DNA of 30,597 bases. Origin: a virus. The notes under the pieces are model-generated. The model was not told the DNA's origin and searched no databases. It was given only the letters and a program-made list of their open reading frames with translations. This document shows, piece by piece, positions 3,786 to 15,615 of this stretch. The translations under genes and the position numbers were made by a program. The first letter of the stretch is position 1. The number at the start of each line of letters is the position of its first letter. The stretch covers positions 1-30,597 of IMG/VR virus record IMGVR_UViG_3300043411_001027. One strand, written 5' to 3'.

Positions 3786-4032
3786 TAATTTCTCCTAAAT
3801 TATCAACAATCATTTCTATTGCAGCTAATTCATTTAGCGCAGCTTCTTGATTAACAATGTGTTTAACAATACGGTTGAACTCAGTAATTTTCAATCCCAA
3901 ACCCTCGGCTTCTTTTTTGATGTCCGCTAAATCATCTGCATAGCTGTTTATACTCTGCTCAATTTCAATTTTACGCTTAATTAAAGCCAGTAAATCGTCC
4001 TTGAGTTTTGGGTCTGAAAATATGTTTGTCAA
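3778..4032 (-). CDS. GapR-like (DUF2312-like) DNA-binding protein, copy 2
   Basis: An 84-aa paralogue of the protein at 2051-2314. It shares LIKRKIEIEQSINSYADDLA, the AEGLGLKI-x-EFNRIVK turn-helix and the C-terminal N-x-EAALNELA helix. The pattern suggests a GapR-type nucleoid protein that recognises DNA shape rather than a sequence. It sits 10 nt after the HNH gene at 4043-4297. In this copy the HNH gene comes first and the GapR-like gene second; in the other copy the order is reversed, so a simple tandem duplication does not explain both. Confidence 0.6.
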   Translation of the reverse strand: MTNIFSDPKLKDDLLALIKRKIEIEQSINSYADDLADIKKEAEGLGLKITEFNRIVKHIVNQEAALNELAAIEMIVDNLGEINE

Positions 4033-4356: not shown

Positions 4357-4432
4357 TGGATGAGGTGGGTTGGAGTTGCACCAACGACCTTCTAGTTATG
4401 AGCCATACGAGCTACTACTGCTCCACCCCGCA
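4357..4432 (-). tRNA. Initiator-Met-like tRNA (CAT), degenerate
   Basis: On the minus strand the 5' two thirds follow bacterial tRNA-fMet closely: GCGGGGTGGAGCAG, TAGCTCG, the loop CTCATAA and AGAAGGTCGT. The T-arm can form GTTGG/CCAAC, but its loop reads TGCAACT rather than TTCRANY. The acceptor 3' side (CCACCTC) mispairs at several positions with TGCGGGG, and the anticodon stem (TATGG/CTAGA) has a mismatch. CCA is present at the end but with an extra base. It is probably a decayed or chimeric initiator tRNA gene. Length is 76 nt. Confidence 0.5.
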
Positions 4433-4457
4433 TTGTTTTAATTTTAAAAAGAACTAC

Positions 4458-4531
4458 TGGCGAGTGGACAAGGAGTCGAACCTCAACTAACGGGTTTGGA
4501 GTCCGTTGCACTACCGTTATACTACCCACCC
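4458..4531 (-). tRNA. tRNA-Trp (CCA)
   Basis: On the minus strand a full cloverleaf can be drawn: acceptor GGGTGGG/TCCACTC (all seven pairs allowing G-U), T8-A9, a D-arm GTAT/GTGC, the anticodon loop CTCCAAA, T-arm TGAGG/CCTTG with loop TTCGACT, discriminator G73 and an encoded CCA (4460-4458). The only flaw is an A-C mismatch at the closing pair of the anticodon stem. Total 74 nt. A phage-borne tRNA-Trp may supplement the host supply. Confidence 0.85.
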
Positions 4532-4728: not shown

Positions 4729-5388
4729 TTAAATGTCTAATATGTCAAATACTTCATGCAGTATTTCTTCAGGATATGCACCGATTTTACCAAACTTTGT
4801 ACTTCCACAGTCACCAATCTTGATACCACGCTCACGACACAATTTAGATGCTTTGCGCCCTGCTTTGTTTGCGGTCTTGTCATCAACATTAATTCCATGC
4901 AAATTGGCAAATCCTGTAATAGCGTAGTAATTGTTGCTGCAATCAGTTTGGCTAAGTTTGTGTTCAACTGATTTTAGTTGTTCTGCTTGAAAGTCTAACG
5001 TTGCTTTAATCTCGTTTTGCTGCTCCATTTGAATCAACAGTTGCAATTGTGGCGACATATTAGCGAATTTAGGAGTTAAATCTTTTAGCTGTTTTTCACA
5101 TTCAATAAAATAATTTCTCATTTCATGACTTTTTTGAGTTCTTGCTTGCATACTAATATGTTTGGCAAAATCTAAACTAATCATGTAATCCTTGGTTTCG
5201 TTACCGTTCAACATAATGTTGAACCCCACCCAATCAATATGTTGCAAGAAAAATTCATTTTCTTCTATATTGGATTTTGACCATCTAGCCCATACAGCCA
5301 AGTTTAGTTCAAGAGTAGCGTACAATTCTCTAGCTGACACTGCGTTAATTTCTTGATTGTTGATTTTAGTGTTTGTAATTTGTAACAT
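4729..5388 (-). CDS. AntA-type phage antirepressor
   Basis: A 219-aa protein. Residues 12-100 form an AntA/ANT domain: AVSARELYATLELNLAVWAR, then WVGFNIMLNG, DYMISLDFAKHISMQARTQK and the signature EMRNYFIECEKQL. A coiled-coil-like middle (about 110-155) follows, then a C-terminal domain with TANKAGRKASKLCRERG that resembles the C-termini of other phage antirepressors. Antirepressors inactivate or compete with the CI-like repressor and favour lytic growth. The gene is preceded by kissing-loop leader A and an extended -10 promoter, so its expression is probably controlled at RNA level. Confidence 0.85.
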   Translation of the reverse strand: MLQITNTKINNQEINAVSARELYATLELNLAVWARWSKSNIEENEFFLQHIDWVGFNIMLNGNETKDYMISLDFAKHISMQARTQKSHEMRNYFIECEKQLKDLTPKFANMSPQLQLLIQMEQQNEIKATLDFQAEQLKSVEHKLSQTDCSNNYYAITGFANLHGINVDDKTANKAGRKASKLCRERGIKIGDCGSTKFGKIGAYPEEILHEVFDILDI

Positions 5389-5402: not shown

Positions 5403-5507
5403 AAAAAAGCCACATTTAAATTACTCCACGAAAGTAATAAAAATATGGCTCAGTCATAATCGGGTAAACTTTAACAATTCGTGGTTGCGATAGTTTACCC
5501 GACTTAG
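5403..5507 (-). promoter_or_regulatory. Kissing-loop leader A (candidate attenuator)
   Basis: RNA on the minus strand starts near 5507. P1 is a 10-bp stem, 5501-5492 with 5470-5461 (CGGGTAAACT/AGTTTACCCG), with a 21-nt loop. P2 follows: outer AGCCA/TGGCT (5450-5446 with 5412-5408) and inner ATTACT/AGTAAT (5438-5433 with 5425-5420), then a U-run at 5408-5403. The 7-nt apical loop of P2 (plus-strand CCACGAA, 5426-5432) is exactly complementary to TTCGTGG in the P1 loop (5478-5484). The ribosome site TTAGGA and the ATG at 5388 follow. It has the same design as the leaders at 12181 and 13777. Confidence 0.75.
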
Positions 5508-5513
5508 AACATT

Positions 5514-5541
5514 ATTATATCACACCCAAGCATTGTTGCAA
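5514..5541 (-). promoter_or_regulatory. Promoter of the antirepressor gene
   Basis: TTGCAA at 5541-5536 is followed after 16 nt by TGATATAAT (perfect -10 TATAAT at 5519-5514 with a TGn extension). Transcription would begin about 6 nt before the P1 hairpin of leader A. Confidence 0.7.
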
Positions 5542-8106: not shown

Positions 8107-8186
8107 AAAATATATCTCATGATAGGATATTGGCAGGCAGTGAGATGCTGCGGTTCGGTAATTACCCTAGCCAATACAGTATTATA
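8107..8186 (-). promoter_or_regulatory. Promoter and structured leader D before the broken HNH gene
   Basis: TGGTATAAT (TATAAT at 8186-8181) inside the end of the RusA gene starts a leader of about 80 nt. TATTGGC/GCCAATA (8176-8170 with 8134-8128) closes a domain that contains a hairpin with GCAG/CTGC arms and a 7-nt loop (plus-strand TGAGATG, 8141-8147). Six loop bases are complementary to ATCTCA at 8114-8119, near the ribosome site. This is a loop-pairing leader related in spirit to A-C, but without a terminator U-run. Confidence 0.45.
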
Positions 8187-8550
8187 CCACAATCTCAGCC
8201 AACACTAATTCAATTCGTGGGTTTAATTTACTGACTTCACCACGTCTAATAACTATCTTATCAATTTGGTTATCATCGCATTGTAATCCATTAAATACAC
8301 CATCTAAAATAGCCTTGCATGAAGCAAGCACATTATCCAAATCATATTTTCTTAAGTCTTTACGGTATATAGTTAAGTCTATTTTTAAGCGTGAATAATC
8401 AGCAAAATAACCTGCATATTCTTTGCTTAGATTATACCCTAAATTCTTGGCAGTGGCTTTAACTTTAGCTTTTGTGTGAAAATGCCGTATAACATTTGGG
8501 TTTAATGTTTTATCTGGGTAAGGCATCTCAATTATAATTTGCTTTGGCAT
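8182..8550 (-). CDS. rusA: RusA-like Holliday-junction resolvase
   Basis: A 122-aa protein of normal RusA length. The family's acidic catalytic pattern is present: KYDLDNVLASCKAILDGVFN (two Asp, then the Lys and DG), followed by the DD of LQCDDNQIDKI. RusA cuts four-way DNA junctions produced in recombination and replication restart, here probably clearing branches before packaging. Its start overlaps the preceding 63-aa gene by 19 nt, and it closes the replication operon that begins at 13762. The leader D promoter lies within its last codons. Confidence 0.85.
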   Translation of the reverse strand: MPKQIIIEMPYPDKTLNPNVIRHFHTKAKVKATAKNLGYNLSKEYAGYFADYSRLKIDLTIYRKDLRKYDLDNVLASCKAILDGVFNGLQCDDNQIDKIVIRRGEVSKLNPRIELVLAEIVV

Positions 8551-10796: not shown

Positions 10797-12164
10797 TTAG
10801 ATAAAATTAGGTAAAATTAATTCTTTGTTAAATTCTTTGTAATTAATATTAAAATCACTGTTTACATTTTTAGTTAAATTTTCGTATAAATCTTGTGCTT
10901 TTTTAGTTTTTTGCTGCAAGGCTTCAATTACACGCCCCTGACCCTCACTAATCACCAAGTCAATAGTGACTGGCTTTGTTTGTCCAAATCTCCAAAACCG
11001 CCGAATTGATTGGTAATACTGCTCATAACTCCATGTTGGAAAGAACACAGCATGATTGCAATGTTGCCAATTTAAACCCTGCCCAGTCATTTTAGCTTTA
11101 GTAATAATTCGCTTAATATTACCCTCTGCAAAATTGATAAGTATATCCTCTTTTTGCTCAATTGTCATAGCCCCTCTAATTTCAATCGCATCTGGGTCTA
11201 ATTTAGCTAATAAAGATGATTCATTATTTAAGTTACACCAATATACCGATGTTTTATCGCTTGCTAATTCTACAGCTTTTTGGCATCTCGCCTCATAAGT
11301 TGCGACTTGCTCGTTTTTAACCTCTGTCATGGTTTTAGCTTTTTTAGCAAACAGTAACTGTTGACTACCATCAGTCATTAGTTCTTTATTGATAACTATT
11401 TGGTTGTTGGTTATAAGCTCTGGCAGATTATAGCGCTCATCACTAAAGCCTAAATCACTAGGCTTTTTGATCATCATAGCCCATTGATTCACCCAGGCAA
11501 AAAAATCACGTTCTGCATGAGGTTTGAGATACCACCGATCACCAATATTCATATTATTACTGTCCATGTCATTTTGATTATTTTTAAAAAATTTGGACAG
11601 CATATCCATGTAGCCCATATAACCCAATACCTCTGAGCTAGTTCCTAATTCTGTAAAGTCATTGGGGCTTGGAGTGGCACTTGAGATATAGCGATAAGGT
11701 ATTTTTCGCATGAAAGCCGTTAGCTCTGTTTTTATTTTTCCGTTAAAGTTTTTCAATATTGAACTTTCGTCACAAATAACCCCGACAAAATCAGTTGAGT
11801 TAAAATAGTGTAACCGCTCATAATTACAAATTACTATGTTTTTAGTAAACTTACCATCTTTTGAGTATTCAATATCATCAATACCTAGCTTATTAGCTTC
11901 TTTAATAAATTGGAACGCTACAGCTAAAGGCGTTAAGATTATCACCCGTTTATTTGTTTCACGGATAATATTATTTGCAATTGAAATTTGGATTAGCGTC
12001 TTGCCAAGTCCAGTATCGGCAAAAACTGCCATACGCCCCTTAACAATCGCTTTTTCGATTATTGCGGCTTGAAAGTCAAACGCAATATCAGGCACGTAAT
12101 TTGGTATAAACCCAAACTCACCGCTTAAGTGCCTTTTTGAGTTGATAAAATCTTTATATTCCAT
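10797..12164 (-). CDS. SNF2/DEAD-like superfamily 2 helicase
   Basis: A 455-aa protein. Walker A ADTGLGKT lies at residues 49-56, motif Ia-like VIILTPLAVAFQF follows, the Walker B is DESS at 132-135 and the motif III SATP is present. The C-terminal half has TGQGLNWQHCNHAVFF and the arginine-finger motif QSIRRFWRFGQ. The pattern is that of phage SNF2-like helicases found beside methyltransferases. It may remodel DNA or RNA during replication or restart. It is transcribed behind leader B at 12181-12290, with TTAGGT as ribosome site. Confidence 0.88.
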   Translation of the reverse strand: MEYKDFINSKRHLSGEFGFIPNYVPDIAFDFQAAIIEKAIVKGRMAVFADTGLGKTLIQISIANNIIRETNKRVIILTPLAVAFQFIKEANKLGIDDIEYSKDGKFTKNIVICNYERLHYFNSTDFVGVICDESSILKNFNGKIKTELTAFMRKIPYRYISSATPSPNDFTELGTSSEVLGYMGYMDMLSKFFKNNQNDMDSNNMNIGDRWYLKPHAERDFFAWVNQWAMMIKKPSDLGFSDERYNLPELITNNQIVINKELMTDGSQQLLFAKKAKTMTEVKNEQVATYEARCQKAVELASDKTSVYWCNLNNESSLLAKLDPDAIEIRGAMTIEQKEDILINFAEGNIKRIITKAKMTGQGLNWQHCNHAVFFPTWSYEQYYQSIRRFWRFGQTKPVTIDLVISEGQGRVIEALQQKTKKAQDLYENLTKNVNSDFNINYKEFNKELILPNFI

Positions 12165-12180
12165 TTTGTAACCTAAAATA

Positions 12181-12290
12181 AAAAAGCCGCTAAAGTTATG
12201 AACGTGGTAGATTTCATAAAATAACGGCTATTTATTTAGGTGATTGATTATTAACTCTACTACCACATAGAAATAATGAATCACCCAATA
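12181..12290 (-). promoter_or_regulatory. Kissing-loop leader B (candidate attenuator)
   Basis: RNA on the minus strand: P1 pairs 12285-12279 with 12245-12239 (GGTGATT/AATCACC) and extends, after one mismatch, by ATTATT/AATAAT. P2 pairs AGCCG/CGGCT (12229-12225 with 12189-12185) and TTATGAA/TTCATAA (12219-12213 with 12202-12196), and a U-run follows at 12185-12181. The P2 loop holds GTGGTAG (plus strand, 12204-12210), exactly complementary to CTACCAC in the P1 loop (12260-12266). The design matches leaders A and C with unrelated loop sequence. Confidence 0.75.
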
Positions 12291-12295
12291 CCAAT

Positions 12296-12322
12296 ATTAT
12301 ATCACAGCTAAAATAAACTGTG
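12296..12322 (-). promoter_or_regulatory. Extended -10 promoter with flanking inverted repeat
   Basis: TGATATAAT (TATAAT at 12301-12296) starts leader B. No good -35 is present. The inverted repeat CACAG (12303-12307) and CTGTG (12318-12322) lies directly upstream and could be an operator. Confidence 0.6.
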
Positions 12323-12335
12323 TTACTTTTTTTAA

Positions 12336-13070
12336 TTAAAACTCTACTTCACCAGGTATTGCATTAGTGAAGTCGCCCATTGTGTGATAACTAGGCTTTT
12401 GATTAGCAACTAAAGCACAATTAGCCCGCTCAAACTTATCATTAAACTTGGCGCGCTTGAATATTGTTGATAGTGTCACGTATTTATTCTCAATGTACCA
12501 GTTGTCATTAGCAATAAAATCAATTACTTTTTTTATTTCTGCTACTGAATAAGTTTTTAGTAAAAATTCAATATTAGCTAAAACTTCTTTTGTCCCTTTA
12601 GATTTTGAATTAGTTACTTTGTTGAAATGATCGATAACTTCTTTTATATTATTATATGTATTATCTTTTGTATTCTTATTATATGTATTATTACTTATTA
12701 TAATGTCGTTAAGTTTTTTAACGACCAGTGGTTTAATTTCTTTACTACCAGTCGTTAAGTTTTTTAACGACAAGCAGTTAACTAATTCATCTACTTGTAG
12801 CATAAAATATCTACGACAAGGCACACCCTCGCGCTTATCAATAAGAATATTAGAATTAATCAAATTTTCAATTGCTTTGCTTGCTTGATGTTTACTTAAT
12901 GTGGTTATTTCTTCAATTTCTTCATAAGTAAAATAAAACCATCCCTCATTATAATTTTGCTTACTCGCAAAAGCACCCAAAACAATAGACTCGTGCAGTC
13001 CAATTATTTTAATAATTGATTTATTTAGCATAATAAACCCATCTTGGGCTATGAATTGTAAAATATTCAT
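12336..13070 (-). CDS. Phage replication initiator, O-like (DnaD/Phg_2220_C type)
   Basis: A 244-aa protein. Residues 10-90 form a winged-helix region (FYFTYEEIEEITTLSKHQAS then KAIENLINSNIL). A low-complexity Asn/Lys/Thr linker (about 125-145) follows. The C-terminal domain around 145-215 (EVIDHFNKVTNSKSKGTKEV ... WYIENKYVTLSTIFK) matches the conserved phage C-terminal domain found in replication initiators. The DNA coding the linker carries inverted repeats and an AT-rich stretch that look like an origin, as in lambda O. It starts at the stop of the Rha gene (1-nt overlap) and lies upstream of the helicase and DnaC-like loader. Confidence 0.8.
   Translation of the reverse strand: MNILQFIAQDGFIMLNKSIIKIIGLHESIVLGAFASKQNYNEGWFYFTYEEIEEITTLSKHQASKAIENLINSNILIDKREGVPCRRYFMLQVDELVNCLSLKNLTTGSKEIKPLVVKKLNDIIISNNTYNKNTKDNTYNNIKEVIDHFNKVTNSKSKGTKEVLANIEFLLKTYSVAEIKKVIDFIANDNWYIENKYVTLSTIFKRAKFNDKFERANCALVANQKPSYHTMGDFTNAIPGEVEF
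12649..12771. other. Candidate replication origin inside the initiator gene
   Basis: Two identical 21-nt inverted repeats, with arms GTCGTTAA and TTAACGAC and a 5-nt loop, lie at 12705-12725 and 12751-12771 (46 nt apart). Beside them a 16-bp direct repeat TTATTATATGTATTAT occurs at 12649-12664 and 12676-12691, in a nearly pure A/T stretch that could melt easily. The repeats are in the linker part of the gene. The arrangement of initiator sites next to an AT-rich element inside the initiator gene is that of lambda ori. Confidence 0.65.
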
Positions 13071-13762
13071 TATTTAACCCCAAATTCTTTAATTAATTTT
13101 TTACGTAGATATATTTGACCTTTGCCACTAATTAAAGCTTGACCACTTACTTTAGGTAATCCAGTTTTAGGGCATACATAGGTATTTTCAATCCATTTTA
13201 GCCAGCCAGCCTTAATTGCAGCAATACTTGGGCGATTATTACGTGTAGTTAAGTATCCATTATCGCGCAACCAAGCGAATAATCTGTTTTGACCAATATC
13301 ATACCCAGAACTAGCCAATAATCCAGCATAGCCACCAATTGTAATACTATTGCAAGTGCTAGCTACCGCATTGGCAAATTCAACTTGTGGCTTTTGCTCT
13401 TCAAGTAATAAAGTTTGTTGTTCAATTTGTTTAGCTTGCTCTAATGCTAATGTCATTGCTTCAATAAAGTTGGTTGGAACTTTAGGCTGGTTGTTCTCTA
13501 GCTCTTGCCAACGGTCAACGAGTGCGGCGGTAAATTCTGGGCTTAGTCTAGCAACGATAACAAGGCTATCTCTTTTATCCGCAAAATATTCTAAATATTG
13601 CTGTTTATTTTGTGGGTGAACATAATAATTAGGTCTGCTATTTTTTAGCACACCCCCATCAATCAATTGTTCAATAACTGGTACAATATTTCTATGTTCT
13701 TTTTTTGTTAGTTCAGCTATTTCACGACTTGACATTGTTTGATTGTTTTTAATTTGTAACAT
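13070..13762 (-). CDS. Rha/KilAC-type antirepressor
   Basis: A 230-aa protein. The N-terminal 90 residues fit the phage Rha regulator family (MSSREIAELTKKEHRNIVPV ... QYLEYFADKRDSLVIVARLS). A coiled-coil link follows, and the C-terminus is a KilAC/ANT domain (SGYDIGQNRLFAWLRDNGYL, then GKGQIYLRKKL). Rha-KilAC proteins act as lytic-side regulators or antirepressors. It is the first gene of the replication operon and follows leader C, so its RNA may be controlled in the same way as the AntA gene. It is distinct from the AntA protein at 4729-5388, although both begin MLQI. Confidence 0.87.
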   Translation of the reverse strand: MLQIKNNQTMSSREIAELTKKEHRNIVPVIEQLIDGGVLKNSRPNYYVHPQNKQQYLEYFADKRDSLVIVARLSPEFTAALVDRWQELENNQPKVPTNFIEAMTLALEQAKQIEQQTLLLEEQKPQVEFANAVASTCNSITIGGYAGLLASSGYDIGQNRLFAWLRDNGYLTTRNNRPSIAAIKAGWLKWIENTYVCPKTGLPKVSGQALISGKGQIYLRKKLIKEFGVK

Positions 13763-13776
13763 TTTAATTTCCTAAT

Positions 13777-13881
13777 AAAAAAACCCGCTAAAATTTGGTA
13801 GAATCAGTACCAAACAATAACGGGTCATTTTACGAGCACTTACTTTTAATCTCTGATTCAGACAATAAATAAGTGCTCAAT
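13777..13881 (-). promoter_or_regulatory. Kissing-loop leader C (candidate attenuator)
   Basis: RNA on the minus strand: P1 pairs 13878-13870 with 13842-13834 (GAGCACTTA/TAAGTGCTC, 9 bp) around a 27-nt loop. P2 pairs ACCCG/CGGGT (13825-13821 with 13787-13783) and TTTGGTA/TACCAAA (13814-13808 with 13800-13794), then a run of seven U. The 7-nt P2 loop GAATCAG (13801-13807, plus strand) is exactly complementary to CTGATTC in the P1 loop (13853-13859). The ribosome site TTAGGA and ATG at 13762 follow. This is the cleanest of the three leaders. Confidence 0.8.
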
Positions 13882-13887
13882 ACCAGT

Positions 13888-13915
13888 ATTATACCATATT
13901 CGTGACGTCACGCAA
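13888..13915 (-). promoter_or_regulatory. Promoter of the Rha operon with a palindrome in the spacer
   Basis: TTGCGT (13915-13910), 16-nt spacer and TGGTATAAT (TATAAT 13893-13888). The 12-bp perfect palindrome CGTGACGTCACG at 13901-13912 overlaps the -35 and spacer, where a repressor would block polymerase. Confidence 0.7.
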
Positions 13916-15606: not shown

Positions 15607-15615
15607 ATTATACCA
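15607..15615 (-). promoter_or_regulatory. Leftward extended -10 promoter for the RHH operon
   Basis: TGGTATAAT on the minus strand (TATAAT at 15612-15607), followed by GCTGGTATC as in leaders B and C. About 20 nt of leader separate it from the GGAGTG of the RHH gene. No -35 is evident. Confidence 0.65.

Follow-up and report, generated by a model that had tools for sequence, protein, structure and literature searches.

In phages P1 and P7 one promoter serves both the C4 antisense RNA and the antirepressor gene; C4 blocks ant translation at the a′ and b′ sites, and a loop code decides its specificity. Termination in P4 is Rho-dependent, not an event at an intrinsic terminator that carries the target in its own loop. 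HK022 put RNA antiterminates by contacting RNA polymerase. The CI RNA of P4, treated together with the IsrK RNA of Gifsy-1, is a leader RNA; by pairing with complementary sites of its own transcript it controls termination there (PMC4825925). The C4 family (RF01695) is listed in PMC2864571. In attenuators of the pT181 type, kissing loops are tied to the attenuator choice in replication genes, and flexible internal loops are part of the design (PMC4878617). The leaders described below share something with each of these systems.

Three leaders in one virus record

The window, that is the whole 30.6-kb virus record analysed (30,597 nucleotides), carries three leaders, A, B and C, all on the minus strand. 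They are built in the same order: an extended −10 promoter, a first hairpin (P1), a short linker, a second, terminator-like hairpin (P2), a run of 6–7 U and a gene, whose start codon lies about 15 nt past the U tract. Their places, the two hairpins of each and the matched 7-mers all agree with a sequence-only reading of the window, the P2 loop of B having 10 nt, 7 of which match P1. Leader C begins at the promoter TGGTATAAT (13888–13896), followed by P1 (13833–13879, apical loop GAATCAG at 13853–13859), P2 (13782–13826, apical loop CTGATTC at 13801–13807) and a U7 tract (13777–13783), upstream of a Rha/KilAC (ANT) antirepressor gene (13070–13762). In leader B the promoter TGATATAAT (12296–12304) precedes P1 (12236–12288, with GTGGTAG at 12260–12266), P2 (12185–12229, with CTACCAC at 12204–12210), a U6 tract (12180–12185) and a gene for an SNF2/DEAD-like helicase (10797–12164). 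Leader A has the same box TGATATAAT (5514–5522), P1 (5458–5504, apical loop CCACGAA at 5478–5484), P2 (5408–5450, with TTCGTGG at 5426–5432) and a U6 tract (5403–5408) in front of the AntA antirepressor gene (4729–5388). Two adjacent tRNA genes lie downstream of that gene, at 4361–4531 on the same strand.

P1 and P2 fold with RNAfold as separate hairpins in all three leaders. P1 of A and C has a stem of 12–13 bp followed by a 3 × 3 internal loop and 4 more bp, and its 7-nt apical loop consists of the code and nothing else. The three codes differ from one another and occur nowhere else between genes of the contig. A detector that looked for a terminator with a loop of 6–11 nt and for the complement of a 7-mer inside an upstream hairpin loop, ignoring promoters, found exactly these three sites, where a shuffled window gave 0.475; adding the requirement of an upstream TATAAT left all three and brought the shuffle mean to 0.02 (1000 dinucleotide shuffles). 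That three such loop matches exceed chance, as had been proposed, is therefore borne out.

The surroundings of promoter C deserve a word. Its −35 region holds a 12-bp perfect palindrome, CGTGACGTCACG (13900–13911), possibly an operator; TGACGTCA, within it, occurs only once in the window. Two further extended −10 boxes TGGTATAAT, at 8181–8189 and 15607–15615 on the minus strand, have no kissing leader downstream.

Kissing leaders in other phages

Loci retrieved for homologues of the three genes were scanned together with named phages, and 2667 clustered terminators were tested for a complement of their loop. Among leader terminators at or below −10 kcal/mol (n = 339), 40 had a match of at least 7 nt, against 5.2 by loop swap (maximum 13 in 40 swaps), while the 1170 non-leader terminators gave 15 against 13.8 expected, that is, no excess. 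Three of the 40 (L101 3764, L254 and L261) look accidental and were dropped from later counts. As this list had been chosen by complementarity, two further tests used samples chosen without it. Upstream of helicase genes, 19 of 85 different regions had a strong terminator near the start codon; the loop match reached at least 6 nt in 17 of these 19 and at least 7 nt in 15. A second sample consisted of 60 promoter-proximal leader terminators picked by energy, promoter and gene only: a match of at least 6 nt was present in 43, against 4.2 expected (maximum 9 in 200 loop swaps), and a 7-nt match in 31, against 1.4 (maximum 5). By eye, and outside the score, two of the 17 misses (L038 and L109, minus strand) hold a complement of the P1 loop in a more complex P2.

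Carriers include the Flavobacterium phage hattifnatt9-1, with leaders before the helicase gene gp034, before the endonuclease gene gp041 and a third further on, its snusmum relatives, also Flavobacterium phages, and the Polaribacter phages Freya_1 and Danklef_1. Helicases, replication initiators, antirepressors, one endonuclease and small proteins without assigned function are encoded downstream. The homologues of the helicase behind leader B in Bacteroidota phages have kissing leaders with different codes. Members from Bacteroidota phages have the promoter TAnnTTTG, not TATAAT; since the window phage uses TATAAT promoters and has a terminase closest to Burkholderia and Acinetobacter phage proteins, the design is not confined to Bacteroidota phages. 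No close helicase homologue turned up in 297 Bacteroidota genomes (best 32–35% identity, in four genomes), so prophages of the helicase-bearing group are seldom met with among these genomes. No member was recognised among the loci retrieved from collections of viruses and genomes with the patterns TATAATAYTGGTATTG and TGRTATAATAYTGGTATTG, and leader C gave no blastn match in phages.

The codes change even where the leaders are homologous. A fourth homologous leader, on another virus contig (L010/L109), has the code GTAGGAA/TTCCTAC before an antirepressor gene, with the promoter and stem layout of C and G·U changes that keep P1 paired. The pairs C/L010 (69% identical flanks) and L304/L335 (76%) have alignable flanks but different matched codes. 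Among 36 measured leaders there are 32 distinct 7-mers, of 55% G+C, biased to G in the first position, A in the last but one and G or A in the last. Where one phage has several leaders, their codes differ: the window has its three, hattifnatt9-1 has GCTTCGAC, GTCGTCG and GTGAGA, and the L027 record has ATTGTAG and CGTGAA. Codes are not always different, since GCTTCGAC is common to hattifnatt9-1, L332 and L282. Further homologues with compensatory loop changes thus exist, as the scan and both blind samples bear out.

Other features of the L010/L109 contig may be recorded here. The gene behind the leader, from 3697 on, encodes a protein that resembles AntA at its N-terminus and, over one stretch, is 92% identical to the Rha/KilAC protein of the window; the gene reads as a chimera of the window's two antirepressors. 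Positions 3854–3921 of L109 match the int-alpA RNA of Rfam. GACCAA, near the 5′ end of a second promoter-proximal leader at L109 5100 on the minus strand, may pair with TTGGTC, which lies in the complex P2 of that leader.

Anatomy of the leaders

The class is characterized by its layout, by complementarity that lies largely within the loops, by matched codes that change, by a near-constant spacing and by its restriction to leaders. The loop–loop complementary helix has a mean of 7.6 bp; in 21 of 37 leaders the P2 loop contains all of it, and in the remainder it extends 1–2 nt past that loop. At most 2 nt of the P1 loop lie beside the code in 24 of 36 leaders, so that both loops would pair nearly fully. 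The spacing between the two code segments, K1 in P1 and K2 in P2, is 38–55 nt in 34 of 36 leaders (median 45), K1 having been searched for anywhere in the 110 nt upstream of P2. Linker length shows no clear relation to the slack of the P1 loop or to the P2 arm, and is inversely related to the 3′ arm of P1, as the constant spacing would lead one to expect; a scaling of the linker with stem length, once considered as proof of pairing in cis, was rejected, as there was no clear relation beyond this effect. The linker of leader C has 6 nt, and many linkers look short for a straight stack of P1, kissing helix and P2. A U-turn (YUNR) signature is weak. MAFFT aligned the variable loops of the members poorly.

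Two familiar kinds of attenuation were considered and set aside. RNAfold showed no alternative antiterminator helix competing with P2 in A, B or C, and complementary matches mostly end at the loop edges. As for leader peptides, A and C have open reading frames of 13 and 18 codons, with the ATG in the P1–P2 linker, running into or through P2, but by eye there is none in B, L010 or L027.

A proposed mechanism

The sequence-only reading saw in these loops a regulatory RNA class, and this view is strengthened by a complementarity that is kept while the letters change, by the position in leaders of early genes and by wide recurrence. The reading that we prefer, and hold to be rather probable, is that these early-gene leaders of phages form a self-coded family of kissing-loop attenuators, the loop pair setting the fraction of read-through. 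Termination at P2, pairing of the loops in the cell, the direction of its effect and any action in trans are what we infer from the observed anatomy.

Transcription would start just upstream of P1, which would fold first. About 45 nt after K1 the apical loop of P2, the presumed intrinsic terminator, would emerge and could then pair with its counterpart in P1, the two being part of one nascent RNA; with P1 complete before P2, K1 would already be waiting when that loop appears. A fraction of the transcripts would end at the U tract, giving a leader RNA of about 100 nt, the others continuing into the antirepressor or replication gene, and the loop–loop pair would set the proportion between them. 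Because P2 is predicted to be strong by itself (in many members between −14 and −26 kcal/mol) and no helix competing with it is found, the loop pair is likely the point of control. More tentatively, with confidence short of even, we suggest that pairing in cis hinders P2 from closing completely and thereby favours read-through, while free leader RNA with the same code would act in trans as a competitor that restores termination, a self-specific feedback. The direction of the kissing effect cannot be read from the letters, and this cis read-through version is a guess. P2 alone is already a strong predicted terminator, to which kissing could merely add stability, and short linkers would need bending, opening or pairing in trans in some leaders.

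The fixed spacing favours a role in cis and the fast-changing, private codes favour a role in recognition, and both can be true. A bolder and somewhat unlikely extension is that the private 7-mers let leader RNAs recognise only partners of like kind, both in cis and in trans, forming an RNA-only system of self and non-self for replication and antirepression.

Among the other explanations, the one we take most seriously, unlikely as we judge it, is a role mainly in trans: the terminated leader RNA would bind, through its P1 loop, the P2 loop of other genome copies or of a superinfecting relative, for control of dosage or as RNA immunity, the 7-mer being the immunity code. Codes that nearly all differ, also between homologous leaders and among leaders of one phage, speak in its favour, as do targets that are replication and antirepressor genes, like those of phages P4 and P1. 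The P4 CI RNA, indeed, pairs with seqA/seqC and causes termination ahead of replication genes (PMC4825925), and the internal loops of hairpin P1 fit a design principle reported for kissing antisense attenuators (PMC4878617). Yet pairing in trans would not need a near-constant spacing of 45 nt, the codes of the window are absent from other intergenic positions in the contig, and the lack of close helicase homologues among the 297 Bacteroidota genomes makes immunity of lysogens look unlikely for the helicase group.

That the loop pair merely stabilises the leader or strengthens the terminator, with no regulated step, seems to us quite improbable: full 7/7 pairing would give a compact, nuclease-resistant 5′ end, but the predicted energies of P2 leave weak reason for exact complementarity amid changing letters, and ordinary strong terminators do without it. 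We give still less credit to a put-like element, whose two hairpins would bind RNA polymerase and confer resistance to later terminators; the position directly after an early phage promoter recalls HK022 put, but here P2 itself is U-tailed and terminator-like, and stems and loops vary in sequence, whereas a fixed contact with the polymerase would require conservation. Finally, AT-rich DNA yields many short complementary hairpins, and matches at weak terminators are mostly due to chance; an artefact of chance or of search selection is nevertheless discarded, for the class by the blind samples with their loop-swap controls and for the window by the shuffles, to the point that we hardly consider it.

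If read-through is controlled by the loop pair of the kissing-loop attenuator, an RNA switch for early genes is common to phages from two host groups or more. Motif finders built on a consensus would overlook such a switch, since what defines it is letters that match each other, not letters that are conserved. It would offer nature's own set of orthogonal attenuators, and would tie intramolecular kissing, in a way that can be tested, to intrinsic termination and to interference between phages.

Comparison with known systems

At the gathering threshold, an Rfam cmscan of the window and eight member loci matched no family to any leader, C4 (RF01695) included, and a permissive Rfam scan of leader C did not list C4. 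The open-access literature gave no description of a kissing terminator-leader design, an absence which is no proof of novelty. The opinion that no such class had been described therefore stands as far as Rfam and this literature go, and the kissing terminator leader looks like an undescribed switch. It has the general layout of an attenuator with an intrinsic terminator, namely a promoter-proximal P2 hairpin and a U6–U7 tract before a gene.

C4 acts on ant translation sites, whereas the target in kissing leaders would be a terminator loop. The genetic context is similar for A, C and L010, which lie upstream of antirepressor genes on the same predicted transcript; unlike C4, other members have a helicase or replication gene downstream. 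ColE1 RNAI/RNAII have kissing loops of 7 nt, like the 7-mers here. In systems of the pT181 type the antisense is a separate RNA from the opposite strand, accompanied by a classical, mutually exclusive antiterminator helix, whereas kissing leaders have both hairpins on one transcript; RNAfold found no such helix in A, B and C, where complementarity is largely within loops, and the opposite strand near them has no TG-extended TATAAT, the one promoter type searched for.

The parallel with HK022 put, which the sequence-only reading had drawn, rests on the pair of hairpins that follows an early phage promoter directly, and weakens because P2 is a U-tailed, terminator-like hairpin; nor are the sequences conserved. 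It is a poorer parallel than P4 CI, C4 or pT181 attenuation, which are closer in function. P4 CI and IsrK resemble the kissing leaders, as these are proposed to work, in that pairing within one transcript controls termination upstream of replication or antirepressor genes of phages (PMC4825925); in contrast, CI is processed and acts in trans, and the leaders have no Rfam match. The nearest known systems are thus P4 CI in logic, C4 in gene context and pT181 attenuation in the use of kissing loops. What would set the present leaders apart from all three, to judge by their sequences, is that the partner of the preceding hairpin is the intrinsic terminator's own loop, on the same RNA.
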